Below are positions 12,336 through 49,957 of a stretch of 64,000 bases of DNA, one piece after another. Made by a program: the position numbers and the translations under genes. The notes below the pieces were generated by a model, which was not told the origin of the DNA, did no database searches, and saw only the letters and a program-made list of their open reading frames with translations. The stretch comes from Rhodococcus opacus B4. GTDB lineage: Bacteria > Actinomycetota > Actinomycetes > Mycobacteriales > Mycobacteriaceae. Every line of letters begins with the position of its first letter. Position 1 is the first letter of the stretch. Location of the stretch: positions 3,224,001 to 3,288,000 of the forward strand of contig NC_012522.1 in the NCBI RefSeq assembly GCF_000010805.1. Direction: 5' to 3'.

Positions 12336-13655
12336 CTACGGGTACAGGCCGCGGACCCGGTGTGCCTCGGCGACCTTGCCGACACCCAAGACATGGGCTG
12401 CCAACCGAAGTGGAATTCTCTTGTCGCCGGCGAGAGCCCACACCGAGCGGGATGCGGTGCGCATCAGGGTTACAAGCTTGCGGTTGACTTCCTCGCTGCT
12501 CCAGGAGAAGGCCTGCAGGTTCTGTACCCATTCCAAATAGGAGACGACGACACCGCCCGCGTTGGCGAGGATGTCCGGAACGACGGTGATGCCCTTGCCG
12601 GCGAAGATCGTGTCGGCATCGGGTGAGGTCGGCCCGTTCGCACCCTCGACGATCAGTCGCGCGCGAACGGTGTCGGCGTTCTGCCCGGTCAGCACACCGT
12701 CCATGGCCGCGGGGACGAGGACATCCACATCGAGCGCGAACAGTTCCGCGTTGGAGATCTGGTCGGCGCCATCGTAAGTGTCGAGGGTTCGGCCGCGACC
12801 CACCCACTCCTGGATCGCTGCGATCTCGAGCCCGGATTCGCGGTAGCAGCCGCCGGTCACGTCCGAGACCGCCACCACCCGGCAGCCTTCGTCTGCGAAG
12901 AACTGCGCTGCATGGGCACCGACCTTACCGAATCCCTGAATGGCCACCGCCGCACCGACCGGGTCGATCCCCTTCTGCCGCATCGCCTCCAGCGCAGCGA
13001 GGACCACCCCACGGGAGGTGGCACCGGCCCGGCCGTTCGACCCACCGACGGCCAGGGGTTTACCGGTGGTCGCCCCGTGGACAGAGTAGCCGGCACTGAC
13101 GGAGTAGGTATCCATCATCCAGGCCATGGTGGTTTCGTCGGTATTGACATCGGGAGCGGGAATGTCCTTGTCGGGACCGATGAACGGCAGGATCTCCTGG
13201 GTGTATCGGCGGGTGAGTCGTTCCTTTTCCGCCATGCTCAGGACACTGGTATCTACCGCGATGCCGCCCTTGGCCCCGCCATAAGGTAGGCCGAGGAGGG
13301 CGCACTTCCAGGTCATCCACATCGCGAGCGCGGTGACCTCCTCGATGTCACTGGCGGGGTGGAATCGGACGCCGCCCTTGCCGGGGCCGCGGGTGAGGTT
13401 GTGCTGGACACGGTACCCGGTGTAGATCTCGGTGGTTCCGGTATCCCGACGCAGGGGCACGGCCACAGTCAGAGACCGGCGGGGTGTGGCGAGTAGCTGA
13501 TGGAGTCCCTCGTCGAGCCCGAGGAGATCAGTGGCATTGCGCAGTTGGGTCAACGCTGCCCGGTGGGCGAGTTGGCCGGGGGACGGCGGCGCACCGAAAG
13601 TCACGGGGGCGGTGGGGGTCGGCTCTGCAGTGGTGTGGAGATCGGTGATCGTCAT
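12336..13655 (-). CDS. Glutamate dehydrogenase (Glu/Leu/Phe/Val dehydrogenase family)
   Basis: 439 residues. The N-terminal substrate domain shows GPGKGGVRFHP, then the catalytic-Lys region MTWKCALLGLPYGGAKGGI and DIPAPDVNTDE. The C-terminal Rossmann domain has IQGFGKVGAHAA (near residue 230) and IVEGANGPTSPDAD. Length fits the hexameric ~45-kDa class. It interconverts glutamate and 2-oxoglutarate plus ammonia; the exact amino-acid and coenzyme preference cannot be read. The ATG at 13655 is preceded by a weak AAAGG; a longer open frame upstream has no coding features. A perfect copy of the recurrent operator lies ~210 nt upstream. This suggests co-regulation with the amine cluster, where it could regenerate glutamate or 2-oxoglutarate for the ligase, aminotransferase and dioxygenases. 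Confidence 0.9.
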   Translation of the reverse strand: MTITDLHTTAEPTPTAPVTFGAPPSPGQLAHRAALTQLRNATDLLGLDEGLHQLLATPRRSLTVAVPLRRDTGTTEIYTGYRVQHNLTRGPGKGGVRFHPASDIEEVTALAMWMTWKCALLGLPYGGAKGGIAVDTSVLSMAEKERLTRRYTQEILPFIGPDKDIPAPDVNTDETTMAWMMDTYSVSAGYSVHGATTGKPLAVGGSNGRAGATSRGVVLAALEAMRQKGIDPVGAAVAIQGFGKVGAHAAQFFADEGCRVVAVSDVTGGCYRESGLEIAAIQEWVGRGRTLDTYDGADQISNAELFALDVDVLVPAAMDGVLTGQNADTVRARLIVEGANGPTSPDADTIFAGKGITVVPDILANAGGVVVSYLEWVQNLQAFSWSSEEVNRKLVTLMRTASRSVWALAGDKRIPLRLAAHVLGVGKVAEAHRVRGLYP

Positions 13656-14607: not shown

Positions 14608-15291
14608 CTAGCCGATACTGAAGGGCTGACCCCACAAGGTGACCGTGCTGGAGACATTCTCGGTCTCGACCTCGACGTTAACGAAGGCGCGGGCCTGGGC
14701 GTAGCCGGCGCACCCGCTCACGCCGAGAGTGGAGTCGCTCCACGAGACCGAACCGGTAGGGCCCTCGAAGTAGTTGCCACCCCAATGCGCCTCCGCGCCG
14801 TAGGGATCGGCATATTCCTGGTCGAGGATGTCGACCGGAATCGCCTGACCGGGACCGAGAGTGATTCCGCCGCTCGTCCCCCCGGAAAGTGGGTTCCCAA
14901 CGGTCCCGGTCTCGATATCGGCCCATGACATCGAGGCCCCACCCTGTGCGTCGACACCCGCACCGAAGTCGATCTGGCACGCCAGAACGTAGCCAGGATA
15001 GATGAACGCGGTCTGCACGCCGTCACCCTCGAGCGCGACGGACGCCCTGCCCGAGACCCAGACGTTGCGGTGCAACGGCGTCGAACCCATCGACGGCGAA
15101 ATGTTCGCACTCTCGTCCGTCAGGTTCACCGTCACCACAGTGCCATCGGCGAGGGTCTGCGTGATGCTGCCACCGGGCAGCGGAACGTACGTATCGGCAT
15201 TCGCCGCACCGACGGAGCACAAGCCCATGGTCGCGGCAGCAACGGCACCGACCGCAGCCAGACGCACACCGTTCTTACGGTTGATGATCAT
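14608..15291 (-). CDS. MspA-family porin 1
   Basis: 227 residues. An N-terminal signal peptide (RKNGVRLAAVGAVAAATMGL, cleavage around GAANA/D) is followed by the MspA fold: TYVPLPGGS, a VTVNLTDESANISPSMGSTP strand, the VWVSGRASV strand, PGYVLACQIDFG and the typical C-terminal ARAFVNVEVE ... FSIG. MspA proteins form octameric goblet pores in the mycolic-acid outer membrane and admit small hydrophilic solutes. ATG at 15291 follows GAGGGAACA. It lies 72 nt after a second porin gene on the same strand, and both could serve substrate uptake for the surrounding catabolic genes. Confidence 0.9.
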   Translation of the reverse strand: MIINRKNGVRLAAVGAVAAATMGLCSVGAANADTYVPLPGGSITQTLADGTVVTVNLTDESANISPSMGSTPLHRNVWVSGRASVALEGDGVQTAFIYPGYVLACQIDFGAGVDAQGGASMSWADIETGTVGNPLSGGTSGGITLGPGQAIPVDILDQEYADPYGAEAHWGGNYFEGPTGSVSWSDSTLGVSGCAGYAQARAFVNVEVETENVSSTVTLWGQPFSIG

Positions 15292-15363: not shown

Positions 15364-16047
15364 TCAGCCGATACTGAACGGCGCACCGTACAGAACGGTC
15401 TTCGAGTAGTCGTTACCCACGATCTCCACGACCGAGTACGACCGAGCCTGCGCAAATCCACCGCACTTCTGCACCTGCAGCTCCGCGTCCTGGTACTGCA
15501 ACGCGTACACGCCGTCCTTCGTGATGTCCTTCGCCGCGATCGGTACGTACTTGACCTCACCCGAGTTCAGCGGAACCGACAGCCCTAGGCCCGGCGACAG
15601 CGAAGACAGATCCGCCGCGAACGACGGCGACGCCGACAGACCGGTGATGTCCACCTGGCAACCCACGATGTACCCCGTCGACACCCGCGAAACACCATGT
15701 GTGGTCGTCGCATTCGTACCGTTGTAGGTACCCGCATTGTTCGTCGTGGCGTTCGCGACCGGAACCTCGGCGACCTCCTCGAGCCCGGTGACGTCAGCCG
15801 TCACCGTGCCCGACACCCACGCCACCCGACCGGCGCCATTGGCAGCCAACGACGGCGACGACAGAGCGCTCTCCGCGGTACGCGTCACCGTCACATTCGG
15901 ACCGGTCTTCGAACCATCAGGCAGCGGGATGAAAGTATCCGCGCCCGCCGCACCAGTAGACATCAAACCGAGTGCAACAGCCGCAGCAGCACCCAGGCCT
16001 GCAATACGGGCGCCACGGCGCAGACCTGATACGGAGTTCTTCATCAT
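15364..16047 (-). CDS. MspA-family porin 2
   Basis: 227 residues with a signal peptide (RRGARIAGLGAAAAVALGL, cleavage near GAAGA/D) and the MspA motifs TFIPLPDGS, TRTAESALSSPSLAANGAGR, VAWVSGTV, VGCQVDITG and the C-terminal SIG. It is closer to the mycobacterial MspA consensus than porin 1. A Thr/Asn/Gly-rich segment (VANATTNNAGTYNGTNATTT) interrupts the middle strands and looks like an enlarged loop. ATG at 16047 (or the adjacent ATG at 16044) follows GAGGGAAAC. First gene of the two-porin unit; both act in the outer membrane. Confidence 0.9.
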   Translation of the reverse strand: MMKNSVSGLRRGARIAGLGAAAAVALGLMSTGAAGADTFIPLPDGSKTGPNVTVTRTAESALSSPSLAANGAGRVAWVSGTVTADVTGLEEVAEVPVANATTNNAGTYNGTNATTTHGVSRVSTGYIVGCQVDITGLSASPSFAADLSSLSPGLGLSVPLNSGEVKYVPIAAKDITKDGVYALQYQDAELQVQKCGGFAQARSYSVVEIVGNDYSKTVLYGAPFSIG

Positions 16048-22882: not shown

Positions 22883-24388
22883 CTACAACTCGATCCAGGT
22901 CGTCTTGAGGTGCGTGTATTTGTCCAGACCGTGATTGCTCCTGTCCGCACCGTGCCCGGACAGCTTGCGGCCGCCGAACGGGACCGAGGAGTCGCCCTCT
23001 TCGTAGCAGTTGATCCAGACCATACCGGCGTCGATGCCGCGCGCCATCCGGTGAGCCCGGCCCAGATCCGCGGTCCACACCGACGAACCCAATCCGAAAA
23101 CCGTATTGTTCGCGATCGCGAGCGCCTCCTCCTCCGCACGGAAGGAGTGCACCGCCAGCACCGGACCGAAGATCTCGTGCTGGGCGAGCCTGCTGTCCGG
23201 ATCGACGTCGACGAAGACAGCAGGGTCGACGTACAGGCCGTCATCGCGCCTGGTATCCGAGCCCAGAACCAGTTTGGCACCCGAGTCGATGCCCGCGCGG
23301 ATCTCGGCCAGGACGTCGTCGCGATGTGCGGCGAAGGCCAGCGGACCGAGTGTCGTCGCCGGGTCCAGTGGATCACCGATCACCGCCGCGTTCAGGTTGT
23401 CGATGACCTTCGCCACCACTTCCTCGCGTACGTCCTCGTGGACCACCAATCGCGATCCGGCAGTGCACATTTGACCGCTATTGAAGGACACCGCCCAGGC
23501 GGCCATTGAGGCTGCCCGGTCCAGGTCGGGCGCGTCGGGGAACACGATGTTCGGCGACTTGCCGCCCAGCTCCAGCCACACCGGTTTGGCGTTGGACGCA
23601 CCCGCGTAGGACAGCAGCTGCTTCCCGACGTCGGTGGATCCGGTGAACGCCAGGGTCGCGATATCGTCGTGCATGCCGAGCTGTTCGCCGACCTTGGCGC
23701 CACTGCCGGTGATCACCTGCAGAACGCCCGGGGGTATTCCTGCCTCGTAGGCAAGCTCGGCGGCCCGCAGCAGGGAGAACGGCGTCTGACTCGCCGGCTT
23801 GGCGACGACGCTGTTGCCGGCGACCAGGGCAGCCGGAATCTTGAACATCGCGAGCGTCATCGGGAAGTTCCACGGCGTGATGATGCCGACGACACCGACC
23901 GGCTCACGGGTCACCAGGGCGACCGCGCCGTTGCGGCCGCGCGGAGACTCGTCCATCAGCTTGTCGGCAAGCTCGCCGTACCAGCGCACAGTGTTGATCG
24001 CGGTACGCATCTCGACGTTCCACGCGATCGTGACCGGTTTACCCATTTCGTACGCAACAAGGAACGCCAGCTCGTCGCGATGCGCGTCGAGCAGGTCGGC
24101 CCACCGGATCAGCGTCTCGCCACGCTCACGCGGCTCCAATCCTGCCCACACCCGGCTGCGAAAGGCGCGCTTCGCACCCTGTATTGCCCGCTCGACATCC
24201 ACCTCGTCAGCACTCGCCACCTGCACCGTCTCACCGCGGCGGGGACTGGTATGCGGTGCGGTCTTGCCGCTGCTTGCTTGCGCCCACTCGCCGTCCACCC
24301 ACATCGCAGTCGGCAACTCGGTCTGCACCGCGAGGTCCAGCCAGTCGTCAAATGTGGCCCGTTCGGGAGTCTTGACTTTATCTGCCAC
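22883..24388 (-). CDS. NAD(P)-dependent aldehyde dehydrogenase
   Basis: 501 residues, the standard length of the ALDH superfamily. Motifs: VVGIITPWNFPMT near residue 160, FTGSTDVGKQL near 245, catalytic Glu in LELGGKSPN near 270, catalytic Cys in NSGQMCTAGSR near 303, EIFGPVL near 398 and INCYEEGDSSVPFGGRKLSG near 450. It resembles the PuuC/gamma-glutamyl-aminobutyraldehyde dehydrogenase group by overall pattern, but that subgroup call is uncertain. A GTG at 24388 preceded by AAAGGCGGA gives the best start; the frame stays open far upstream over the PhyH gene. It is the second gene of a PhyH-ALDH operon (59 nt gap). It probably oxidises the aldehyde made by the dehydrogenases or dioxygenases of the cluster. 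Confidence 0.9.
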   Translation of the reverse strand: MADKVKTPERATFDDWLDLAVQTELPTAMWVDGEWAQASSGKTAPHTSPRRGETVQVASADEVDVERAIQGAKRAFRSRVWAGLEPRERGETLIRWADLLDAHRDELAFLVAYEMGKPVTIAWNVEMRTAINTVRWYGELADKLMDESPRGRNGAVALVTREPVGVVGIITPWNFPMTLAMFKIPAALVAGNSVVAKPASQTPFSLLRAAELAYEAGIPPGVLQVITGSGAKVGEQLGMHDDIATLAFTGSTDVGKQLLSYAGASNAKPVWLELGGKSPNIVFPDAPDLDRAASMAAWAVSFNSGQMCTAGSRLVVHEDVREEVVAKVIDNLNAAVIGDPLDPATTLGPLAFAAHRDDVLAEIRAGIDSGAKLVLGSDTRRDDGLYVDPAVFVDVDPDSRLAQHEIFGPVLAVHSFRAEEEALAIANNTVFGLGSSVWTADLGRAHRMARGIDAGMVWINCYEEGDSSVPFGGRKLSGHGADRSNHGLDKYTHLKTTWIEL

Positions 24389-24447: not shown

Positions 24448-25311
24448 TCAGCTGTCGAGCCCGAGGACTCCGGCCAATTCGTTGTAATCGACCTGCCACA
24501 GGCCCGCCGACGTCGGCGGGTACTGCGAGCGGAATCCGATCAGTCGTTGCGCACGCGGCGACAGCGTTTTGGCGATCTCCAGATCGACGATGAACGGGTA
24601 GGACTCTTCGGGGGTCAAGTAGCCAGCGTTGAAGGTGAACGCAACAGCGCGACGGTACTCGTTGTCGGTGAGGTTGGCCCCGCCACCATGGACGGTCTTT
24701 CCACTGATGAACAGCGCGTCGCCAGCCTTCATGATCGCCGGAATGGTGCCTTCCGGAGTCCCGTTGTCCTCGAAGTCGTCCCAATGATTGCTGCCCGGGA
24801 TGACACGAGTCGCACCATTCTCCTCGGTGAAGTCGGTCAGCGCGATCAGGAAATTGATGCACGCTTCGGGGCCGGACGGGCCCAGTGCGTAGAAGGGCGG
24901 CCAGTTGCCCAGGTCGCGGTGCAGCATCTGAGCCTTGTTGCCCGGGCCGATCTCGATGACCTGTGCCGTGGTCATCCAGTACGTGCCGGCTTCCTCGACG
25001 AAGGTCAGATCACTCAGTTCGTGAACAAGATCCTTGTCGATGATTTCCCCGCGGAAAGTCTCGCTGTGCGTGACCAGATTCGTCAGGCGCTTGGTGTTGC
25101 TACCGTGGAACTCGGCGATCATGCCGTCGTGCGTAGAGCCCGGGCGCAGCTGTGCCATCGGATCGTCGATGTCAGCGTTGAAGCGCTTGATCTGGTCTCG
25201 TGTGAGAAAGTCTTCGATGATCACACCGCCGTCGCGGCGGACGATCTCGAGAATCTTCTCCGCAGACGTGGTCACGGGGACTCGCTGCAGTACCTGCTGG
25301 TCGACAGTCAT
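24448..25311 (-). CDS. PhyH-family Fe(II)/2-oxoglutarate dioxygenase 1
   Basis: 287 residues of the phytanoyl-CoA dioxygenase (PhyH) superfamily. The N-terminus carries the usual DGGVIIEDFLT. The metal triad is HRDLG (His-x-Asp, near residue 136) and the distal His in KTVHGGGAN near 205, followed by the 2-oxoglutarate Arg in EYRRAVAFTFN. GATRVIPGSNHWDDF precedes it. Such enzymes hydroxylate small substrates, including amines and amino acids (EctD is a relative), using O2. ATG at 25311 follows GGAGAAG; the operator at 25346 lies only 35 nt upstream. A close paralogue is at 36902-37810 and a distant one at 38593-39486. Confidence 0.9.
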   Translation of the reverse strand: MTVDQQVLQRVPVTTSAEKILEIVRRDGGVIIEDFLTRDQIKRFNADIDDPMAQLRPGSTHDGMIAEFHGSNTKRLTNLVTHSETFRGEIIDKDLVHELSDLTFVEEAGTYWMTTAQVIEIGPGNKAQMLHRDLGNWPPFYALGPSGPEACINFLIALTDFTEENGATRVIPGSNHWDDFEDNGTPEGTIPAIMKAGDALFISGKTVHGGGANLTDNEYRRAVAFTFNAGYLTPEESYPFIVDLEIAKTLSPRAQRLIGFRSQYPPTSAGLWQVDYNELAGVLGLDS

Positions 25312-25592: not shown

Positions 25593-26843
25593 TCAGCCGA
25601 CGACGCGGCTCAGTGCCTCGGCGATGAAGTCGATGTCCTCGGCCGTGTGCGCTGTACTCAGGAAGATTTTTCCCGAGGGCATGAACATCACGCCTTCGGC
25701 GAGCATCCCGCCCAGGACCTTCCCCCAGATGCCACCGGTTCCGTGGAGTCCGGTGGCCGCGCCCTCGGGCACGAATTGCAGCAACGACCCCACACGGTTC
25801 AGATGCGCCGGGACTTCGGCTTCGGCCAGTACCGCACCGAACAGATCGTGGAACCGCGCCGCATTGCTCTCCAGCGTCGCATACACCGCCGGATCCGCGA
25901 GCACACCCATCGTCGCCTCGACCGCGGCCAACGCGACCGGATTTCCGTTGAACGTTCCGGCATGCACCACGCCGTCGGTCACCTGATCTATCAAGTCTGC
26001 GCGGCCCACCACCGCGCTCTGGGTGAACCCGCCGGCCATCGCCTTGCCGAACACCGATAGATCCGGGCGTACCCCGAAGCGCTCGGTGGCACCACCACGT
26101 GCGACCCGGAAGCCCGCGATGACCTCGTCGAAAATGAGCACCACGCCGGCCTCGTCGCACAGAGCCCGAACCGCCCGCAAGAACTCCGGAAGCGGTTCGG
26201 TCACCCCCGCATTGCTCATAATCGGATCGAGCAGGACCGCGGCGATACCGAGTTCGCGTGCGTCCTCCAGAATGCCGGTGATCATCTCGATGTCGTTGAA
26301 CTCCGAAACGATCAGATCATCAAGAACGCTGGGGCTCTGGCCTCTGGTTGCGGTCAGCGTCGGCCTGCCGTACTCATCCGACGACATACCCGCATAGACC
26401 GAATCCTGCCAGCCGTGATAGCTCTTGGCGAACTTGACGATGCGTCGGCGTCCGGTCGCGGCCCGAGCGAGCCGCAGCGACACCTGAACAGCCTCGGTGC
26501 CGGTGTTGCTCCACAACAGGCGCTCGCCGTGCGAAACCGCCTCCAGCACCGCTTCGGCCGCCGCGTACTCCAGGGCGTGGCCGGTGCCGACCACCTGCAT
26601 GCGGTCGAGGACTCCCCGGACCGCCGACACCACCCGTTCGTCGCTGTGACCGAGCACCAGTGCACCCCAGGCCATTACACAGTCAGCATATCGATCGCCG
26701 TCCAGATCCCAGACGTGGGCGCCACGAGCTTCCCTGACGAACAACGGATGCGGCTGCATGGATGCACGCAGCCCCGAACTGACTCCGCCGCCAATGCTGT
26801 TCCGAGAACGCTGAAATGCGGCAAGTGAAGATTGAAGACCCAT
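25593..26843 (-). CDS. Class-III aminotransferase (HemL/omega-transaminase-like)
   Basis: 416 residues. PLP-enzyme motifs: NTGTEAVQVSLRLARAATGR near residue 110, YHGWQD near 143, IFDEVIAGFRVARGG near 235 and the PLP-Lys in VFGKAMAGGF near 269. HAGTFNGNPVALAA follows near 298. The pattern resembles glutamate-1-semialdehyde aminomutase-like subgroup enzymes, but with a catabolic neighbourhood a transaminase acting on an amine or amino acid is more likely than haem synthesis. ATG at 26843 follows GAGGAG. Last gene of the five-gene operon starting at 30771, 68 nt after the amidotransferase. Confidence 0.88.
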   Translation of the reverse strand: MGLQSSLAAFQRSRNSIGGGVSSGLRASMQPHPLFVREARGAHVWDLDGDRYADCVMAWGALVLGHSDERVVSAVRGVLDRMQVVGTGHALEYAAAEAVLEAVSHGERLLWSNTGTEAVQVSLRLARAATGRRRIVKFAKSYHGWQDSVYAGMSSDEYGRPTLTATRGQSPSVLDDLIVSEFNDIEMITGILEDARELGIAAVLLDPIMSNAGVTEPLPEFLRAVRALCDEAGVVLIFDEVIAGFRVARGGATERFGVRPDLSVFGKAMAGGFTQSAVVGRADLIDQVTDGVVHAGTFNGNPVALAAVEATMGVLADPAVYATLESNAARFHDLFGAVLAEAEVPAHLNRVGSLLQFVPEGAATGLHGTGGIWGKVLGGMLAEGVMFMPSGKIFLSTAHTAEDIDFIAEALSRVVG

Positions 26844-26911: not shown

Positions 26912-27685
26912 TCATCCGACCTTCCGATGCTGCTGGCGATCATTCATCGTCCATGTGCACCGTTCGATGAGCCAATCGAAGATCGGGTCGCGCTCGGTTT
27001 GCCATTCGGGATGCCACTGGACGCCGACAACGGGTCGGCCACTCAGCTCGATCATCTCCGCACTTCCGTCGGTGGTTCGGCCGGTGACCGCGAGTCCGAC
27101 ACCGGGCCGGTCCACCGCCTGGTGATGCCATGAGTTGGAAGTTCGACGGGCACCGTAGATCTGGCGCCCGACGCTGCCGGAGGAAAAGTCGACGACATGG
27201 TTGTCGTCACCGGCGTAGGGCGCAGCCTTCGGCGAAGAATGCACGACGGACGTTTCCTCGATGTCCTCGATCAGTGTCCCGCCTAGGACGGTGTTCAGCA
27301 GCTGATGCCCGCGGCACACGCCGAGGATGGGGATGCCCAGCGCCAGCGCGTCGGAGATCAGGTCGGCCTCGTACTGGTCCCGCTCGAAGTCGATGACGTC
27401 GACGTTCCGGCGCGGATCGGCGGCCGGGTCGACCGGACGCATGCCACCCCAGCGTGACGGGTGCACGTCCTGTCCGCCCGTCACGATCAACCCGTCCAGC
27501 CTGTCGGCAACACCGGTCGAACTCGACACGAACGGAAGGTTGACCGGAATGCCGCCGGCTTCGGCCACGCACCGGTCGAAGTCAGAGAAGAAGGAGTTCG
27601 TCAAGCGATCGGTGAACCGTGGCGATGTACCGGTCACCATTTCCAGCCGATAGCATCGGCCCGTGATACCGATGAGAGGTCTCAT
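26912..27685 (-). CDS. Class-I glutamine amidotransferase / gamma-glutamyl hydrolase (PuuD-like)
   Basis: 257 residues of peptidase family C26. It begins PLIGITGRCYRLE and has DGLIVTGGQDVHPSRWGG, nucleophile Cys in LGVCRGHQLLN near residue 112, and catalytic His/Glu in GVQWHPEWQ near 232. PuuD-type enzymes release glutamate from gamma-glutamylated amine metabolites. The ATG at 27685 overlaps the stop of the alcohol dehydrogenase gene (ATGA), so it is translationally coupled; the frame remains open upstream but that part overlaps the dehydrogenase. The presence of a ligase in the same operon supports a gamma-glutamylation/deglutamylation cycle. Confidence 0.88.
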   Translation of the reverse strand: MRPLIGITGRCYRLEMVTGTSPRFTDRLTNSFFSDFDRCVAEAGGIPVNLPFVSSSTGVADRLDGLIVTGGQDVHPSRWGGMRPVDPAADPRRNVDVIDFERDQYEADLISDALALGIPILGVCRGHQLLNTVLGGTLIEDIEETSVVHSSPKAAPYAGDDNHVVDFSSGSVGRQIYGARRTSNSWHHQAVDRPGVGLAVTGRTTDGSAEMIELSGRPVVGVQWHPEWQTERDPIFDWLIERCTWTMNDRQQHRKVG

Positions 27686-28794
27686 GTCGACGTCGCTCCA
27701 ATTCCTACGACAACGCGGATTTCCCTGCCCGATGCCAGGGCATCGAACCCTTCGTTGATTGTTTCGAGTGAGTATTCGGCGGTGACCAGCTCGTCGAGCT
27801 GCAGCAAACCGGCCCGTGCGAACTGCAGATACATCGGGATATCCACCTTGAAGTGGTTCGATCCCATGAACGACCCGCGCAGACTTTTTTCCTGCATGAA
27901 GAGTTCGGATCCACGAAGTGGAATCGAATGCGAGTCCGGGATCATGCCCATCACCGTGGCAACGCCGCCTGGTCGCAGCATCGCGAACGCCTGCCCTGCC
28001 GTGGCACCGGAGCCGACCGCCTCGAATGCGTGGTGCGTGCCGCCGTCGGTCAGCGCCTGCACCGCCGCGACCGGGTCGGTCTCGCGGGCATTCACCACCT
28101 CTGTTGCTCCGAAGAACTTGGCCTGCTCCAGTTTTTCCGGCACGACGTCCACACCGATGATCTGTGCCGCGCCGGCCAGCCGGGCGGCCTGCACCGCGGA
28201 GAATCCGATTCCGCCGAGCCCGATCACCGCAACAGTCTGCCCCGGACGAACGCAGGCGCTCTGCAGCACCGAGCCCATCCCGGTGGTCACCGCGCAGCCG
28301 AGCACGCTCGCCGTTTGCAGACGTACCCCCGGCTCGATCGTGACGACGCTGTTCTTGTGGACCAGCGCCATCTCGGCGAAACCACCGATCCCGGCAGTGG
28401 CCCGCACCGCCGCCCCCTGACTGTTGGTCAGACGGGGCCGGGCGCGGCCCTGCTGCAACTCCGCCCGACGCACGCACAGGGTCTGCTGCCCGGCCAGGCA
28501 GAATTCACACGACCCGCAGTACGCCGACAGACAGGTCACGACGGTGGTACCTGGACTGAACTCCGTAACAGCGCTGCCGACCTCGACGACCTCGCCCACC
28601 GCCTCGTGGCCGAGCACGATCGGCGTGTCGGACTCGAAGGTTCCGTCCATCTCGTGCAGGTCCGAATGACACAGACCGGCGTACGCGATCCGGATCAGCA
28701 CCTCGTCGGGCCCTGGGTCGTCGATGACCAGCTCTTCGATATCCAACGCACCTGGCGCGGCATTGAGCACTGCCGCCTTGATACGCGTGCTCAT
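27682..28794 (-). CDS. Zinc-dependent alcohol dehydrogenase (MDR family)
   Basis: 370 residues. Catalytic Zn ligands: Cys in GLCHSDLHE near residue 38 and GHEAVGEV near 61. Structural Zn: the four-Cys cluster CGSCEFC...C near 92-104. Rossmann motif VIGLGGIGFSAVQAA near 190, followed by an acidic residue in IIGVDVV, which favours NAD. It looks like a class-III-like/aryl alcohol dehydrogenase. Its ATG overlaps the stop of the ligase gene (ATGA) and its stop overlaps the amidotransferase start (ATGA), so the three are tightly coupled. Probable step: oxidation of a hydroxylated (gamma-glutamyl) amine to the aldehyde taken by the ALDH (inference). Confidence 0.9.
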   Translation of the reverse strand: MSTRIKAAVLNAAPGALDIEELVIDDPGPDEVLIRIAYAGLCHSDLHEMDGTFESDTPIVLGHEAVGEVVEVGSAVTEFSPGTTVVTCLSAYCGSCEFCLAGQQTLCVRRAELQQGRARPRLTNSQGAAVRATAGIGGFAEMALVHKNSVVTIEPGVRLQTASVLGCAVTTGMGSVLQSACVRPGQTVAVIGLGGIGFSAVQAARLAGAAQIIGVDVVPEKLEQAKFFGATEVVNARETDPVAAVQALTDGGTHHAFEAVGSGATAGQAFAMLRPGGVATVMGMIPDSHSIPLRGSELFMQEKSLRGSFMGSNHFKVDIPMYLQFARAGLLQLDELVTAEYSLETINEGFDALASGREIRVVVGIGATST

Positions 28795-30161
28795 ACAAGC
28801 TCGAAGTAGCGGTTGAGTTCCCAATCGGTGATCCCGCAGTCGGGGTCGCCGCCACCCATGGTGTGGAACGCCAGCCATTCCCAGCGTCGGGTTCCGATCC
28901 AGTAGTCGACGAACTCTTGCCCGAGGACCTCGGCCAGTGCCTTGTCGGCTGCGAGTGCATCGGCCGCGCGGGTGATCGTGTGCGGCAGCGCCTCGGTGCC
29001 GGACGGGTTACACCAGGCCATGCCGACGAACGGGGCCGGCGGCTCGATGCCGTTGACGACGCCGAAAAGACCGGCCCCCAGCACCGCTGCAGCTACCAGG
29101 TAGGCGTTCGAATCTGCTCCCGGCGTCCGGTATTCGATGCGCGAGTACTTCGGGTGGCGGGTCACCGCGCGGACGGCGGTGGTCTTGTTGTCGATGCCCC
29201 AGGTGACAGTCGTGGGCGGGCCTTCCAGCGGGATCTGCCGTCGGTAGGAGGTCAGGAACGGCAGTGCCAACGAGGTTGCCCCCGGCATGGTCTGCACGAC
29301 GCCGCCGATGAAGTTTCGCATCACATCGGACGGTCCGTTCTCGGCGAAGAACGCGTTGCCGTCCTCGTTCGCCAACGAGATGTTCAGATGCGAGGCCTGA
29401 CCCCACGCGTCGGACCACTTGGCCATGAAGGTCACCGACCGACCCAGCTCGTTCGCGACCTCACGAAGGACCTGACGGGTCCGGGCCCAGTTGTCGGCCG
29501 TGGTGACGATGTCGGCGACGGCGACGTTGATCTCGATCTGGCCCACGGCCGCCTCGTCGTTCCACGCCTCCCACTCCAGTCCCACTTCTACGAGACGCTT
29601 CTGCACTCGGTCCAGGAACTGCCACCAATCGCCAGACTTGGCATGCACATAGGCTCCGCCGGCCGAACCGCCGAGCGGGGTCAGATCCTTGTATCCCTTG
29701 CGTCGCGCTTCGTGAACCGACTCCTCGAAGACGGTTGCTTCGATCTCGATCGCCGCCTTGACCGAGTAGCCCTCGTCAGCAGCCTGCCGCTCCACCTTGC
29801 GCAAGAGATTTCGCGGACATACCGACACCGGGTCACCGGTCTTGGTCCAGAAGTCGCCGATGACGGATGCCTTGCCGGGCTCCCATTCGATCAGCGTCGC
29901 CAGGTCGGGGCGAAGGAAGATGTCCAGCAGATCGCCGCGCCACTCCGGAAAGGCGAAACCGAACTGGGGAAAGTTACCGAGATCGTTGCCGAAGACGACG
30001 TCGGCGAACGGAAATCCCGTCTCGAGTCCGCTCAGGAACTTCTTCGGGGAAATCGACTTTCCCACGAACGTCCCGTCGAGGTTCGTTGCCTCGATGCGAA
30101 TCGACGTGATCGCCCGCTCGTCCAGCCACCGCCGGACCCGGGCACTCGTTGTTTCAGCCAT
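28791..30161 (-). CDS. Glutamine-synthetase-family ligase (gamma-glutamylamine synthetase-like)
   Basis: 456 residues with the GS fold: IEIEATVFEE (metal Glu pair near 134), GQIEINVA near 206, KWSDAWGQASHLNISL with the conserved His near 258, a TSYRRQIP in place of the NSYKR loop, and RIEYRTPGADSNAYL near 337. It lacks the N-terminal adenylylation-style features of housekeeping GlnA and resembles PuuA/GlnA3-type enzymes that join glutamate to amines with ATP. ATG at 30161 follows GGAAGGT and overlaps the previous gene by 8 nt. Together with the PuuD-like hydrolase, ADH and ALDH it defines the probable amine-activating step. The amine itself is unknown. Confidence 0.88.
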   Translation of the reverse strand: MAETTSARVRRWLDERAITSIRIEATNLDGTFVGKSISPKKFLSGLETGFPFADVVFGNDLGNFPQFGFAFPEWRGDLLDIFLRPDLATLIEWEPGKASVIGDFWTKTGDPVSVCPRNLLRKVERQAADEGYSVKAAIEIEATVFEESVHEARRKGYKDLTPLGGSAGGAYVHAKSGDWWQFLDRVQKRLVEVGLEWEAWNDEAAVGQIEINVAVADIVTTADNWARTRQVLREVANELGRSVTFMAKWSDAWGQASHLNISLANEDGNAFFAENGPSDVMRNFIGGVVQTMPGATSLALPFLTSYRRQIPLEGPPTTVTWGIDNKTTAVRAVTRHPKYSRIEYRTPGADSNAYLVAAAVLGAGLFGVVNGIEPPAPFVGMAWCNPSGTEALPHTITRAADALAADKALAEVLGQEFVDYWIGTRRWEWLAFHTMGGGDPDCGITDWELNRYFELV

Positions 30162-30771
30162 TGAACCGCACCTTCCAGTGTGCACCGCACATCACTGAGA
30201 TCTGCGCAGCCGAGCCGATCACCGCGACGGCACCGACACCCAGTGCGATGAGAAATGAATCGAACATCCCGCTGAGGACTGCCGACAATGATTCGGCCGA
30301 CCCGTGGATCTCGAAAGTGGCGACGCCGTCGCCGAAGACGAGACGCTCGTCGTTGTCGATGCACACGATGACCAGCTGCTCGGGGAATCCAGCCGAGTCG
30401 GCGTTGAGTTCCCAGAACTTCTGCGCAGCGACATTCCAGTCCGGCAGGGGCGGCGACAGCAGCCGGCCCACCGCGTGCCCGATCTCCCCTCCCCCGACGA
30501 CCGTGTATTCGGGGTAGAAGTGCAGTTCGAGAGGTTCGACACTGCCGTCGACGCCGTGCCTCACATGTACGCGACCGTCGGCGAAATCGAGCGTCGCCGC
30601 CTGCGGATCGACGACCGACTTCAGCGCCACCGTCCCGGTAGTACCACCTATCAACGCCCGCAACTCGGGCACCTCTGCGCTGGCCCTCAACGTCCGAGCC
30701 ACCGACAGCACCAGCGGCGTCGGATCCGGCTCGACCGCGACCAGCAAATCTTCTGCAGTCAGGGAACTCAC
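30154..30771 (-). CDS. Unknown protein, first gene of the ligase operon
   Basis: 205 residues from a GTG at 30771 with GAGG upstream (an alternative TTG start lies 10 codons earlier). I do not recognise the family. The central part (TLDFADGRVHVRHG, later LVIVCIDNDERLVFGDGVATFEI) has the alternating strand/turn pattern seen in sterol-carrier-protein-2-like domains, and the C-terminus is hydrophobic (FLIALGVGAVAVIGSAAQISV), possibly one helix. It overlaps the ligase gene by 8 nt, so the two are co-translated and it should work in the same pathway, perhaps as a small-molecule carrier or membrane anchor. That role is a guess. Confidence 0.6.
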   Translation of the reverse strand: MSSLTAEDLLVAVEPDPTPLVLSVARTLRASAEVPELRALIGGTTGTVALKSVVDPQAATLDFADGRVHVRHGVDGSVEPLELHFYPEYTVVGGGEIGHAVGRLLSPPLPDWNVAAQKFWELNADSAGFPEQLVIVCIDNDERLVFGDGVATFEIHGSAESLSAVLSGMFDSFLIALGVGAVAVIGSAAQISVMCGAHWKVRFNG

Positions 30772-30812
30772 CTGCTTGACCTCATTTCGATGACTGACCA
30801 AGACTTCTGCCT

Positions 30813-31118: not shown

Positions 31119-32573
31119 ATGGAGCCAACAAACTCGCACGTCGACGTCGTAATCGTGGGAGCGGGACTGTCCGGCATCGCCGCCGCGGTCGAACTGCGTA
31201 CCACCCATCCCGAGCGGACGTTCGTCATGCTCGAGAAGCGCGACAACCTCGGTGGCACCTGGGACCTGTTCCGGTACCCGGGCATCAGGTCCGACAGCGA
31301 CATGTTCACCCTCGGCTACAGCTTCAAGCCGTGGCGGGACGAGAAGACGATCGCCGACGGGCAGACCATCCTCGACTATCTCCACGAAGCCGTCGACGAG
31401 CATCAACTGCGTTCCACCGTCCGCGTCGATCATCGTGTGCTCAAGGCGGATTGGTCGAGCGAATCCAGCACCTGGACGGTGCAGGTCGAGTCGCCCGCCG
31501 GCTCCGACACGATCACGTGCTCATTCCTGTACATGGCCTCGGGCTACTACGACAACGAGAACGGCTACCGACCACGATTCCCGGGCGAGGAGAATTTCAC
31601 GGGCCCGATCGTCCATCCCCAGGAATGGCCGGAGGATCTCGACTACGCCGACAAGAAAGTGGCAGTCATCGGTTCCGGTGCCACGGCCATCACGCTGATC
31701 CCGGCGATGGCCGGCACCGCCACCAAGGTCACCATGGTGCAGCGTTCGCCGTCGTACGTCGCGATCGACAGCGACATCGACGAGGACGCCATCAAGTTGC
31801 GGGCGGAAATCGGCGACGAGGCCGCGTTCGACGCGGTCCGCCTGCGCAACCTGGAACAGCAACAGATCAACTATCAGTTCGCACGGAGCTATCCCGAGGA
31901 GTTCAAGAAGCCGCTGTTCGATGCGATCGACGCGATAGTCGGGTCCGAGTTCCGCGAGAAGCACTTCACCCCGTCCTACCAACCGTGGGATCAGCGCCTG
32001 TGCCTGGTCCCCAACGGCGACCTCTTCGAAGCGATCAAGGCCGGCCAGGCCGACGTGGCGACCGGATCCATCGCCGAGTTCACCGAGCACGGCATCCGAA
32101 TGGAGTCCGGCGACATGGTGGAGGCCGACATCATCGTCACCGCCACCGGACTGAACCTCTGCACCCTCGGCAAGGTTGCGTTCACCGTCGACGGAAACCC
32201 GGTCGACTTCAGCACTACCTACACCTACAAGGGTGTCGCGTTCAGCGGCGTCCCAAACCTGGTGCAGGCGCACGGCTATCTGAACTCGTCGTGGACGCTG
32301 CGACTCGAACTGGTCAACCAATTCTGGAGTTCGCTGCTCACCACGATGGACAAGCTGGGTGCCAAAGCGGTTACCCCGGTGTTGCGTGCCGGCGACGAGA
32401 ACATGCCGCGCGATCCGTGGATGACCGGAGTGACCTCGGGATACTTCTTGCGGTACCTCGATCACATGCCGTCGCAGGGCGATCGGCTCCCGTGGCTGAA
32501 CCCGCAGGTGCACGAGCTCACGAAGGAGATCCTCAGCGCCGATCCCGACGACGGGGTACTTCAATTCGATTAG
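31119..32573 (+). CDS. Class-B flavin monooxygenase with Baeyer-Villiger fingerprint
   Basis: 484 residues. FAD Rossmann motif VGAGLSGIAAAVEL near residue 15, GGTWDLFRYPGIRSDSD near 45, the Baeyer-Villiger fingerprint FTGPIVHPQEWP (F-x-G-x3-H-x3-W-P) near 157, NADPH motif VIGSGATAITL near 182 and IVTATGLNL near 341. It thus matches Baeyer-Villiger monooxygenases, which insert oxygen next to a carbonyl; N- or S-oxygenation is also possible in this class. ATG at 31119 with a weak GGGAGTGA upstream. It is divergent from the ligase operon with two operator-like sites between, so probably co-induced. A lactone or ester product could be opened by the hydrolase at 20326. Confidence 0.9.
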   Translation: MEPTNSHVDVVIVGAGLSGIAAAVELRTTHPERTFVMLEKRDNLGGTWDLFRYPGIRSDSDMFTLGYSFKPWRDEKTIADGQTILDYLHEAVDEHQLRSTVRVDHRVLKADWSSESSTWTVQVESPAGSDTITCSFLYMASGYYDNENGYRPRFPGEENFTGPIVHPQEWPEDLDYADKKVAVIGSGATAITLIPAMAGTATKVTMVQRSPSYVAIDSDIDEDAIKLRAEIGDEAAFDAVRLRNLEQQQINYQFARSYPEEFKKPLFDAIDAIVGSEFREKHFTPSYQPWDQRLCLVPNGDLFEAIKAGQADVATGSIAEFTEHGIRMESGDMVEADIIVTATGLNLCTLGKVAFTVDGNPVDFSTTYTYKGVAFSGVPNLVQAHGYLNSSWTLRLELVNQFWSSLLTTMDKLGAKAVTPVLRAGDENMPRDPWMTGVTSGYFLRYLDHMPSQGDRLPWLNPQVHELTKEILSADPDDGVLQFD

Positions 32574-36901: not shown

Positions 36902-37810
36902 TCAATGGGCTCCAGGAGCGCTGAGTGGGCCGACGTAGGCTTTTTCGTCATCCAGACCCAGGTAGCTGGACAGCTCGCCGTAGTCGTACTGCCACAGACC
37001 ACCGGACAGAGCCGGGTACTGCGAACGGAAGCCGAGCAGTCGCTGCGCATGCGGAGTCATGGTCTTGACCAGGTCCATGTCGACCATGAAGGGGTAGGCC
37101 TCCTCGCCGACGAAGCAGCTGGAGTTGAAGGCGAAGGCGACAGCACGACGGTAGATGTCCGCGGTCTGGTTGGCGCCTCCGCTGTGGGCAGTCTTGCCGC
37201 TGAGCAGCAGTGCGTCGCCGGAATTCATGATGGCCGGGATTGTGTCCTCGTGCTTACCGCGATCCTCGAAGTCCGGCCAGTGGTTGCTTCCCGGAATGAC
37301 GCGGGTGGCACCGTTTTCCTCGGTGAAGTCGGTGAACGCAATCAGGAAGTTGATCGTGCCTTCCGGGCCTTTCCGGCCGAGCTCGAACAGCGGCCAGAAG
37401 TTCTCCAGGTCGCGGTGCATCGGCTGCAGCGGGTTTCCGGGGCCGATCTCGATGACCTGGGCTGCAGTCATCCAGTAGGTGCCGGTCTTCTCCAAGAAGG
37501 TGAGATCGGAGATCTCTTTCACCAGCGGATCGTTGATGACCTCGTTGCGGAAGGTCGCGCTGTGGGTCGCCAGGTTGGTGAGGCGCTTGGTGTTGACGCC
37601 GTGAAATGCCTGAATCACCTCGTTGTCATGCGTGGTTCCCGGATTCAAAGCCTGCATGGCCGGTTCGATCTCGGCATCGAAGCGCGCAACCTGATCCTGA
37701 GTGAGCAGTCCCTGAATGACCACCCCACCGTCGCGTTCCATGATCTCGATGATCTCGGTGGCGGGTGTGCTGCGCGGTACGGAGATCAGGGTGTGAGTAA
37801 TACTCGTCAT
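36902..37810 (-). CDS. PhyH-family Fe(II)/2-oxoglutarate dioxygenase 2
   Basis: 302 residues and clearly a close paralogue of PhyH1 (shared blocks RDGGVVIQGLLTQDQ, NTKRLTNLATHS, TYWMTAAQVIEIGPGN, INFLIAFTDFTEENGATRVI). Metal ligands HRDLE near residue 142 and the distal His in KTAHSGGANQT near 211; Arg in YRRAVAFAFN. Hydroxylation of a cluster substrate with O2 and 2-oxoglutarate is expected. ATG at 37810 after AAGGGCTG; the operator at 37854 is 44 nt upstream. The last residues after YLGLDDEKAY extend beyond PhyH1. Confidence 0.9.
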   Translation of the reverse strand: MTSITHTLISVPRSTPATEIIEIMERDGGVVIQGLLTQDQVARFDAEIEPAMQALNPGTTHDNEVIQAFHGVNTKRLTNLATHSATFRNEVINDPLVKEISDLTFLEKTGTYWMTAAQVIEIGPGNPLQPMHRDLENFWPLFELGRKGPEGTINFLIAFTDFTEENGATRVIPGSNHWPDFEDRGKHEDTIPAIMNSGDALLLSGKTAHSGGANQTADIYRRAVAFAFNSSCFVGEEAYPFMVDMDLVKTMTPHAQRLLGFRSQYPALSGGLWQYDYGELSSYLGLDDEKAYVGPLSAPGAH

Positions 37811-38592: not shown

Positions 38593-39486
38593 TTACTCGG
38601 CATCGAATTGGGCGTAGCTGTTGGTGAACGGCGCAGCGTCGTCCTTCAGCAAGAAGATCGGGTCGGCCATCGCGCCCTCGTGGCCCACGAATCCGGTACC
38701 GGGTGGACAGGTCGAGTAGCCCAGCAGCTTCTGAATATCCTCGTCGAAGGTCCTGGCAATCTCCGGCGGGTACGTAAGGAATGCGTTCTCCTCCTGACGC
38801 AGAAACCCGAGATCGAAGCCCAGGGTGAATCCGATCCGGCTGCTGTCGGAGTTGTTGGTGCCGCCGCCATGATAGGTACCGCCCACCCAGATCAACGCCG
38901 ACCCCGCGGCCATCTCCGTCGGCAAGGCTTCGTCGACCTTCGGTGCCCGGGTGTCGTCCCACCTGTGACTGCCCGGAACCACCATTGTTCCCCCGTTTTC
39001 CGCGGTGAAATCGGTGATGGCGACCATCAACTGGACACGGGCCTGGTTGTAGCCCTCGTGGTGGCGCCATTGCCACACACTGTCATCCCGATGCAGCGGC
39101 TGCGCGCCCTCGCCGGGGTGGATATCGATGATCGAGGTGACCCCGATCTGATAGTTCGGCACCATCTCGACCTGATCTTCACCCAGGTAGACCGGCCGGG
39201 TGCGCTCCAGGTAGTGCGCCGCTACGCCGTTGTAGATCGGGTGACGTGCAGCCGTGGCGGCATGCTTGATGTGGTTGAAAACGCCGTACAGCCGCTTGGT
39301 CCGTTGCCCGGAGAAGTCGTCCTGGCCCCAGGCCGCTGTCTCCAACGCGGCATCGATCTCCACTCGGGCTTCGTTCAGTGTTTCGCCGTCGAAAAAGTCG
39401 CGGATGATGACGCCGCCGTCACGATCGATGTGCGCGATCACGTCGTCCAGTGAGGCGCTTGCTTCCAGGGTGGTCAAACCTGCCAC
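38593..39486 (-). CDS. PhyH-family Fe(II)/2-oxoglutarate dioxygenase 3 (divergent)
   Basis: 297 residues. It shares the PhyH core (DRDGGVIIRDFFDGETL; ligands HRDDS near residue 150; ENGGTMVVPGSHRWDD; distal His in GTYHGGGTNNS near 217; Arg in RIGFTLGF) but is clearly divergent from PhyH1/2. GTG at 39486 follows a strong GAAGGAGACATC. It is downstream of the acyl-CoA ligase (71 nt gap, same strand), so the ligase and this dioxygenase form an operon; a CoA-thioester or a free acid may be its substrate. The final residues SYAQFDAE are unlike its paralogues. Confidence 0.88.
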   Translation of the reverse strand: MAGLTTLEASASLDDVIAHIDRDGGVIIRDFFDGETLNEARVEIDAALETAAWGQDDFSGQRTKRLYGVFNHIKHAATAARHPIYNGVAAHYLERTRPVYLGEDQVEMVPNYQIGVTSIIDIHPGEGAQPLHRDDSVWQWRHHEGYNQARVQLMVAITDFTAENGGTMVVPGSHRWDDTRAPKVDEALPTEMAAGSALIWVGGTYHGGGTNNSDSSRIGFTLGFDLGFLRQEENAFLTYPPEIARTFDEDIQKLLGYSTCPPGTGFVGHEGAMADPIFLLKDDAAPFTNSYAQFDAE

Positions 39487-39557
39487 GATGTCTCCTTCAA
39501 AGATGTGTGGGCGGAATTGTTCTTTCAATGGATTCGATATGAATTTCAGCCACTCGA

Positions 39558-47334: not shown

Positions 47335-47545
47335 AGCCCCGAAGACCGCACCGGGCGTCGAAGCACCGCGGATCCCTGCCGGGGTTTCGGGGTGTGAGAG
47401 GGAACCCGGTGAGAATCCGGGACTGTCCCGCAGCGGTGAGTGGGAACGACCGCCGTCATCATGCACTGGGCATTTGCCTGGGAAGCGACGGCCACTAGGT
47501 CCGGTGGATGCCACCGGGGGCCCACGAGTCCGAAGACCTGCCGAC
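47335..47545 (+). ncRNA. Cobalamin riboswitch upstream of metE
   Basis: The conserved core is present: GAGGGAACCCGGTGAGAATC, then CGGGACTGTCCCGCAGCGGTGAG (47397-47440), a TGCCTGGGAAGCGACGGCCACT segment and the B12-box-like AGTCCGAAGACCTGCC at 47527-47542. This is the standard order of adenosylcobalamin riboswitches. It is followed by a GC hairpin (47549-47569) and 127 nt later by the metE start. Expected logic: B12 binding shuts off the B12-independent methionine synthase. Outer boundaries are approximate. Confidence 0.88.
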
Positions 47546-47569: not shown

Positions 47570-47695
47570 GGTCCACCGCCTCGGGGAATGGGCGTGTAGG
47601 CCTTCTCGTGTCGCAGCATGCGTTGTCTCGGGCTCGAGAGGTGTACTCGTTTCTGCCGGTGGTGGTCCTTCCCTGCCTGTAACTGGAGAAACACC

Positions 47696-49957
47696 GTGAC
47701 CACCCTCTTCACCGCGACCGTACTGGGATCACCTCGCATCGGTCCGAACCGCGAACTCAAGAAGGCCGTCGAGGCCTACTGGGCGGGCCGCGCCGACGCC
47801 GCCGCCCTGACCGAGGTCGGCGCCGACCTGCGCCGACGAAACTGGACCGACCTGCGCGATGCCGGGCTCGATTCGATCCCGGTCAATACGTTCTCGTACT
47901 ACGACCAGGTCCTCGACACCGCCGTGATGCTCGGTGCCCTGCCCGACCGAGTCGCCGGCATCGGCAATGACCTCGACCGGTACTTCGCCGCCGCCCGCGG
48001 CACCGACACCGTCACCCCGCTGGAGATGACGAAGTGGTTCGACACCAACTACCACTACCTCGTCCCCGAGATCGCCCCCTCCACCACGTTCACCCTGGAC
48101 GCGTCGAAGGTGATCGGCGAACTCGGTGAGGCGCTCGAACTCGGCATCGCGGCCCGCCCGGTGATCGTGGGCCCGGTGACGTTCCTGCTGCTGTCGAAGA
48201 CCGTCGGCTCGGACGCACCCCTGCTCGAGCGCATCGACGAGCTGGTGCCGTTGTATGCGGATCTGCTGACCCGGCTCCACGACTCCGGCGCCGAGTGGGT
48301 GCAGATCGACGAACCGGCCCTGGTCGCCGACCGCACCCCACAGGAGATCGCCACCGCCAAGCGCGTCTACGACCAGCTCTCCGCCGTCGAATCCCGTCCC
48401 GCGATCCTGCTGGCGTCGTACTTCGGCAGCCTCGGCGACGCGCTGCCCGCGCTCGCCTCGACCGGGGTCGAGGGCATCGCGGTCGATCTGGTCGCCGGAT
48501 CCGACACCCTCGCCGCGGTTCCCGAGCTGACCCGCAAGCATGTCGTCGCCGGTGTGGTGGACGGTCGCAACGTCTGGCGCACCGACCTCGAGCACGCGCT
48601 GACCACCCTCGGCACCGCGTTGGGCAGCACCGGATCACTGGCGGTGTCCACCTCCTGCTCGCTGCTGCACGTCCCCTACACGCTCGATGCGGAGCGGTCT
48701 GTGGACGCGGCGCTGCGTTCGTGGCTGGCGTTCGGGTCGGAGAAGGTCCGCGAGGTGGTGACCCTGGCCACCGCATTGACGCAGGGCCGGCAGGCGGTGG
48801 AGGGACGGTTCGCGCTGGACCGGGCGGCACGAGCGACCCGGGCCACGGATTCGCGGCTGCACGACGGCGCGATCCGGGCTCGGCTGGAGTCAATCCTGTC
48901 GTCCGATCCCGGGAGGTCTCCGGCGGATCGGCGTCGTGAGGCGCAGGCCGGGTTGAATCTGCCGTTGCTGCCGACCACCACGATCGGCTCGTACCCGCAG
49001 ACGACGGAGATCCGCCTCGCCCGCGCGTCCTTGCGCAAGGGTGCGATCACGAAGGCGGAATACCACGATCGGATGCGCGCCGAGATCGCCGATGTCATTG
49101 CCCTGCAGGAGAAACTGGGCCTCGACGTCCTCGTGCACGGCGAACCGGAACGCAACGACATGGTGCAGTACTTCGCCGAGCAGTTGGACGGGTTCTTCGC
49201 CACCGAGAACGGCTGGGTACAGTCGTACGGGTCCCGGTGCGTACGTCCGCCGATCCTCTACGGCGACGTGCGCCGGCCGAACCCGATGACCGTCGACTGG
49301 ATCACCTACGCCCAGTCCCTCACCCAGCGCCCGGTCAAGGGCATGCTCACCGGTCCGGTCACCATCCTGGCGTGGTCGTTCGTGCGCGACGACCAACCAC
49401 TGGCCGACTCGGCGAACCAGGTCGCCCTCGCCATCCGCGACGAGACGGTGGACCTGCAGGGCGCCGGGATCCGGATCGTCCAGGTCGACGAACCCGCACT
49501 GCGCGAACTCCTCCCACTGCGGGCGGCCGAGCAGACCGCCTACCTGGACTGGTCGGTCGGGGCGTTCCGGCTCGCCACCTCCGGAGTCGCCGACACCACG
49601 CAGATCCACACCCACCTGTGCTACTCGGAGTTCGGTGAGGTCATCGACGCCATCGCCAACCTCGACGCCGACGTCACCTCCATCGAGGCGGCCCGCTCAC
49701 ACATGGAAGTTCTGGGTGACCTCAACGCCGTCGGCTTCGACCTCGGCGTCGGCCCCGGCGTCTACGACATCCACTCCCCGCGCGTGCCGAGCGTGGCGGA
49801 GATCGCAACGTCGCTGAGGGAGGCACTCGATGCAGTCCCCGCGCAGCGGTTGTGGGTCAACCCCGACTGCGGACTGAAGACCCGCGGCCCGGTGGAGGTG
49901 GAGGCATCCCTGCGTAACCTCGTCGACGCCGCGAAGCTGGTCCGCGCCGGCCTCTGA
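47696..49957 (+). CDS. metE: Cobalamin-independent methionine synthase MetE
   Basis: 753 residues, the family's full length. The N-terminal domain begins [20 protein letters not shown], and the C-terminal catalytic barrel has [14 protein letters not shown] near residue 428, [14 protein letters not shown] near 478, [12 protein letters not shown] near 597, the Zn ligands in HTHLCYSEF near 640 and NPDCGLKTR near 724. It transfers a methyl group from 5-methyltetrahydropteroyl-triglutamate to homocysteine in the cytosol. GTG at 47696 follows GGAGAA. It sits behind a cobalamin riboswitch, so it is likely repressed when B12 is available. Confidence 0.96.

Follow-up and report, generated by a model that had tools for sequence, protein, structure and literature searches.

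We found that a 205-amino-acid protein encoded in the window (the whole 64,000-nucleotide stretch of Rhodococcus opacus B4 DNA analyzed here) is very probably best read as two SCP2-type units in one chain; each line of evidence for this, from sequence profiles and from structural models, is modest, but jointly they support the reading well. We consider the protein likely to be the dedicated partner of one clade of glutamine synthetase (GS)-like ligases, and the conclusion that its gene is obligately paired with this clade in the genomes examined is well supported. The fold and the type of ligase are both known, and it is their obligate combination that is apparently undescribed: a search of open-licence PMC papers found no SCP2 protein paired with a GS-like ligase, and we know of no GS-family enzyme that has so far been found to work with a carrier subunit.

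The gene lies at 30154 to 30771 on the minus strand and runs from a GTG at 30771 to a TGA at 30154 (205 aa plus stop), coordinates that a first-pass annotation, made from the sequence alone, had given correctly. The longest version of the open reading frame would begin at a TTG at 30801 and encode 215 aa. In the closest relative of the protein, however (89% identical; locus L006 of genome G259), stop codons stand upstream of the GTG, making it the earliest possible start (205 codons); for this reason we preferred the GTG in the window and rejected the TTG, and the start assumed in the first-pass annotation is borne out. Compared with this relative, the gene gave a dN of 0.045 and a dS of 0.213 (dN/dS of 0.21), while the antisense frames in the same comparison gave dN/dS values of 1.06, 0.34, and 2.7. 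Both the frame and the overlap with the GS gene are kept in relatives at about 30 to 40% identity. Because dN/dS is low and frame and overlap persist in distant relatives, sequence comparison identifies the product as a protein under selection; a chance open reading frame or antisense artefact was rejected on the dN/dS values. Some relatives are plasmid-borne (3 in Rhodococcus and 1 in Tsukamurella); all annotated plasmid copies of the gene are labelled "hypothetical protein," and the fourth plasmid record is without annotation.

On its own, the window protein has no Pfam or NCBIfam match at an E value of ≤1, and it gave no match to the SCP2 family (PF02036, gathering score of 21.3 bits) at E values up to 10. 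The earlier statement that it has no recognizable family therefore stands for the single sequence; it does not stand for the family, because the relatives do match SCP2. When 34 relatives were scanned against Pfam, 12 matched SCP2 at an E value of ≤10 (best E value, 7.3e-5) and 5 matched the alkyl-sulfatase C-terminal domain; NCBIfam gave nothing meaningful on the same 34. Four of ten members scanned singly matched SCP2, in the first half of the protein for three of them (residues 35 to 98 in L036, 42 to 93 in L016, and 46 to 98 in L019) and in the second half for L013 (residues 142 to 196, in two stretches), which at 23.5 bits was the one of the ten above the Pfam cut-off. As it has no match of its own but relatives that match PF02036, we place the window protein as a divergent relative of the SCP2 fold, not as a Pfam member.

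Profile-profile comparison and structure prediction, both proposed in the first-pass annotation as checks, gave concordant results. In hhalign comparisons with an alignment built from 34 bona fide SCP2 domains, the first half of the family matched with an E value of 3.3e-5 over 74 columns and the second half with 4.3e-4 over 53; for each half, 0 of 200 column shuffles scored as well, and reversed alignments scored far lower. When the profiles of the two halves were compared directly with each other, nothing was found (E value of 0.53). The sequence thus does not reveal the duplication, and we read the protein as a tandem because each half matches SCP2 on its own. A sequence search of the PDB with the family profile returned weak matches, with SCP2 proteins first (E values of 0.2 and 0.24) and ModE close behind (0.34).

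The AlphaFold models, built from two-sequence alignments, point the same way. The first SCP2-like unit (residues 1 to 110; 30442 to 30771, minus strand) modelled alone reached a pLDDT of 80.6 and a pTM of 0.75 in the best one of five (the remaining four models had pLDDT values of 45 to 54), and its top structural match was the SCP2 domain of UbiJ (6h6p; Z score of 6.5, 96 residues, root mean square deviation [rmsd] of 3.5); further alignments were to C-terminal domains of alkylsulfatases and to other domains with this fold. The full-length model was of low confidence (pLDDT of 47.4, pTM of 0.45), and within it residues 108 to 197, in the second unit (about residues 108 to 205; 30157 to 30450, minus strand), aligned to mosquito SCP-2 (2ksh; Z score of 7.0, 88 residues, rmsd of 3.7), with nearly all of the top structural matches being SCP2 folds. 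Both Z scores lie below 8 and come from shallow models, and Foldseek E values were above 0.01 in searches with either one. An SCP2-like strand pattern had been a mere hint in the first-pass annotation; Pfam, profiles, and models now bear it out and extend it to two folds. By analogy with the hydrophobic cavity of SCP2 proteins, binding of a lipid or sterol by the window protein is putative.

The same annotation had noted a hydrophobic tail. Residues 173 to 191 are indeed hydrophobic in the window protein (19-residue Kyte-Doolittle mean of 2.11 at residue 173), but as a conserved feature the tail does not hold up: just 12 of 35 relatives have any 19-residue stretch with a mean of at least 1.6, and many relatives have polar residues and arginine in place of the tail. 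As the stretch is not kept among relatives, we rejected a transmembrane anchor. The models instead place the stretch in the helix-strand-helix with which the second SCP2 fold ends; the protein may still touch the membrane loosely, in the way proposed for UbiJ.

The gene heads a minus-strand run in the order gene-GS-ADH-GGH-aminotransferase-PhyH-ALDH, with a flavin monooxygenase (FMO) diverging from it at 31119; the leading position of the gene had been recognized from the outset. The run comprises a GS-family gamma-glutamyl ligase of 456 aa (28791 to 30161), a Zn alcohol dehydrogenase (27682 to 28797; PF00107/PF08240; its start is not settled, with the frame open to 28878), a gamma-glutamyl hydrolase of the peptidase C26/GATase type (26912 to 27640; PF07722, E value of 7.8e-46), a class III aminotransferase resembling glutamate-1-semialdehyde aminomutase (25593 to 26843; PF00202), a PhyH-type dioxygenase (24448 to 25311; PF05721), and an aldehyde dehydrogenase (22883 to 24304; PF00171, E value of 2e-157). 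On the divergent side, the FMO (31119 to 32573, plus strand; PF13738/PF00743) is joined by an imine-reductase-like protein. The genes further on, to about 43.9 kb, encode a DAP_DH_C protein, a second protein of the NAD_binding_2 type, two additional PhyH proteins, an AMP ligase, an amino-acid permease, and a TetR regulator. Judged from gene content, the layout is that of an amine-utilization cluster with gamma-glutamylated intermediates.

Many amines, pollutants included, enter breakdown through GS-like ligases, which are regarded as stand-alone enzymes. The window GS has the GS catalytic domain (PF00120, E value of 5.4e-74) and is distinct from the glutamate-ammonia ligase equivalogs: all NCBIfam equivalogs for glutamine synthetase and for gamma-glutamylputrescine synthetase scored below cut-off, the latter model at 164.6 bits against a cut-off of 650. 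Its best solved relatives are GS-like, among them 8wwu (E value of 1.4e-36). Since a C26 hydrolase and dehydrogenases adjoin it, the enzyme probably gamma-glutamylates amines for breakdown. A characterized locus of this type was not found in the search of open-licence PMC papers; the available text of a paper on an isoprene plasmid (PMC4676930) concerns other genes.

We compared the distribution of the 205-aa protein with that of the GS clade. Of 401 sampled genomes of the same taxonomic family, 38 contain relatives of the protein, at 47 places and in 13 of 31 genera; the GS clade (E value of ≤1e-100) occurs in the same 38 genomes, also at 47 places, and the two lists fall at neighboring coordinates. 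The two matches lie on different contigs in the draft genome G032, where the contig with the gene also contains the start of GS (L007). At the level of the class (394 genomes), we found 8 full-length places in 7 genomes, along with two further weak and partial matches, and the same 7 genomes hold 8 GS places. The 296 genomes of the phylum added one more full-length case (L127), with a GS that is 44% identical and lies directly behind the gene. The 1.5-kb flanks of 23 more distant GS loci (about 31 to 34% identity) lacked the gene. A search of genome contigs returned one relative, L035, and in viral contigs none of 50 pattern matches was a relative of the protein. Ten of the 12 genomes matched in the phylum, from other actinobacterial lineages, gave matches to the first half only, with no GS in the fetched stretch. 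These loci (L128 to L137) encode proteins of about 140 to 300 aa that match only the first SCP2 unit; two of five scanned match Pfam SCP2 weakly, and we treat them as general SCP2 relatives.

In a set of 45 loci (L035 to L039 and 40 fetched stretches no longer than 20 kb), GS follows the gene immediately, on the same strand, in every case. Alcohol dehydrogenase and gamma-glutamyl hydrolase are likewise present at 45/45, and aldehyde dehydrogenase at 44/45. Pairwise distance matrices of the gene and GS correlated with an r of 0.961 (46 loci), compared with 0.91 for gene-ADH, 0.888 for GS-ADH, and 0.776 for gene-GGH, and shared inheritance in one operon can raise such a correlation without physical contact. 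The tie to the ligase, originally proposed from a single overlap, thus holds in every full-length case examined.

That overlap is exactly 8 nt, as first reported: the GS gene starts with an ATG at 30159 to 30161, inside the end of the 205-aa gene, whose TGA occupies 30154 to 30156, so that the two share ATGGCTGA (30154 to 30161, minus strand). The overlap is again exactly 8 nt in 37 of the 45 loci; in the remaining 8, GS starts with an ATG or GTG that gives an overlap of 11 nt, in the same relative frame, and in L127 the overlap is 4 nt. A candidate GS ribosome-binding site, GGAAGG (30171 to 30176, minus strand), lies 9 nt before the GS ATG and is present in 30/45 loci. With this overlap and the embedded candidate site, we propose that the two genes are co-translated. 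GGAAGG is formed by the codons of the C-terminal Trp-Lys-Val of the protein, and at 30154 to 30176 on the minus strand the conserved Trp-Lys codons thus double as the candidate site; part of the C-terminal conservation may therefore reflect an RNA function.

Obligate pairing, putatively coupled translation, and a fold known to bind hydrophobic ligands point to a subunit or carrier dedicated to the ligase. Our main reading, to which we assign a probability of roughly 0.5, is that the protein serves the co-encoded ligase without catalysis of its own, as an accessory subunit or carrier, and presents a lipophilic amine to it. In such a scheme, translational coupling would have the protein made in step with GS, and the ligand in its SCP2-type cavity would be either a lipophilic substrate, an amine or amino alcohol, or the product of gamma-glutamylation. 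The bound amine would be handed to GS for ATP-dependent gamma-glutamylation, and the protein would keep the intermediate near the enzymes that follow. The alcohol and aldehyde dehydrogenases could then oxidize the masked amino alcohol (alcohol to aldehyde to acid), and the C26-type hydrolase would take off the glutamyl group. Physical contact with GS, ligand binding, the substrate, and the order of steps are what we infer here.

Carriage of a lipophilic substrate, taken by itself, has close to an even chance of being correct. Two published systems make it plausible: the SCP2 domain of UbiJ is proposed, in the available text of PMC9499169, to bind ubiquinone intermediates by their hydrophobic tail within a soluble complex of enzymes, and NpaA1, a GS-like ligase for naphthylamine, is described in the accessible part of PMC11335346 as having a large hydrophobic pocket and an aromatic tunnel for bulky amines, so that bulky lipophilic amines are plausible substrates of GS-like enzymes. 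Against carriage, some amine ligases of the GS-like kind, GlnA4 being an example, use small polar amines, and no comparable partner is described in the portion of PMC6529630 available. More tentative still is the idea of a two-component gamma-glutamyl ligase, in which a dedicated tandem lipid carrier would deliver lipophilic amines that are glutamylated and passed on while bound.

The SCP2 fold also serves as a structural domain without lipid transport, and Eis and maleylpyruvate isomerase, in which it does so, are among our structural matches. This counts against carriage and in favor of a structural or regulatory subunit of GS, whose SCP2 folds would be a scaffold shaping the oligomer or the amine entrance, or an activity switch, with no ligand carried. 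One-to-one obligate pairing and a co-variation strongest with GS would fit such a subunit, and the conserved W112, F119, and W120 could form an interface. We nonetheless regard it as rather unlikely, as lipid binding is the best documented role of the SCP2 fold and an interface was not seen here.

A carrier of a hydrophobic intermediate for some other step, such as the FMO, PhyH, or acyl-CoA ligase reaction, with adjacency to GS serving expression only, is less probable again. SCP2 proteins often serve lipid oxidation, and an FMO-related gene is present at 35/45 loci, an AMP ligase at 38/45, and PhyH at 20/45; all three are nevertheless dispensable in the neighborhood, whereas GS is not, and the gene-FMO correlation is the weakest of those measured (0.626). 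Finally, an enzyme with a new activity on the SCP2 fold is very improbable: there are a few conserved polar residues (D16, R26, Q57, T60, Y153, Q190, S192, and K200) but no clustered catalytic set, the invariant positions (D16, P19, V21, F119, W120, G128, P130, G147, L162, G168, G186, S192, and A197) being mostly structural (Gly, Pro, Trp, Phe, and Leu), with D16 as the single acidic residue and no His or Cys.

Returning to the accessory subunit or carrier, several known systems resemble it in part. The SCP2 domain (PF02036; 2ksh, 1pz4, 2cx7) supplies the fold common to both halves, and relatives match it by Pfam and by profile; the window protein differs in having two units per chain, diverged below recognition, and a fixed GS-like partner. 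UbiJ (6h6p, 6h6o, 6h6n), of the ubiquinone metabolon, shares the fold and is likewise proposed to be a non-catalytic helper of cytosolic enzymes, but its SCP2 domain is single and its role, together with UbiK, is in ubiquinone synthesis, whereas here we found two units in an amine-catabolic operon with GS, ADH, GGH, and ALDH as neighbors. On the side of the ligase, the Puu putrescine pathway has GS-like gamma-glutamylation of an amine, dehydrogenases, and a hydrolase like that of the window. The nearest actinobacterial pathway described, to our knowledge, is the GlnA4 ethanolamine pathway of Streptomyces coelicolor. It shares GS-like amine gamma-glutamylation and dehydrogenases with the window operon but, unlike it, shows no SCP2 partner, and the term SCP2 is absent from the available text (PMC6529630). 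The glutamyl organic amide synthetases NpaA1 and AtdA1 (8wwu) are GS-like organic-amine ligases, as the window GS is presumed to be; they are proteobacterial, with the substrate pocket inside the ligase and no SCP2 partner seen in the part of PMC11335346 available.

In the genomes examined, one whole GS-like clade is thus never seen without a tandem SCP2-fold protein. Were the protein a carrier or subunit, assays or use of these ligases alone may fail or mislead. The reading would also indicate lipophilic substrates for a widespread and uncharacterized actinobacterial amine-catabolic operon and would make the protein another bacterial example, following UbiJ, in which an SCP2 domain serves soluble enzymes.

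Several further features of the window and its relatives were observed. Three PhyH-type dioxygenase genes lie in one amine-type cluster (24448 to 25311, 36902 to 37810, and 38593 to 39510, minus strand), accompanied by two 6PGDH/imine-reductase-like proteins. Many relatives of the operon encode an AMP-binding ligase fused to an enoyl-CoA hydratase (805 aa at 12766 to 15183 in L037), where the window has a plain AMP ligase. Elsewhere in the window, two MspA-type porin genes adjoin each other (14608 to 15291 and 15364 to 16047, minus strand; PF09203), and a cobalamin riboswitch (47369 to 47543, plus strand; 82.1 bits against a gathering score of 31.5) is directly followed by an open reading frame at 47618 to 49957, which reads as a cobalamin-independent methionine synthase (MetE).
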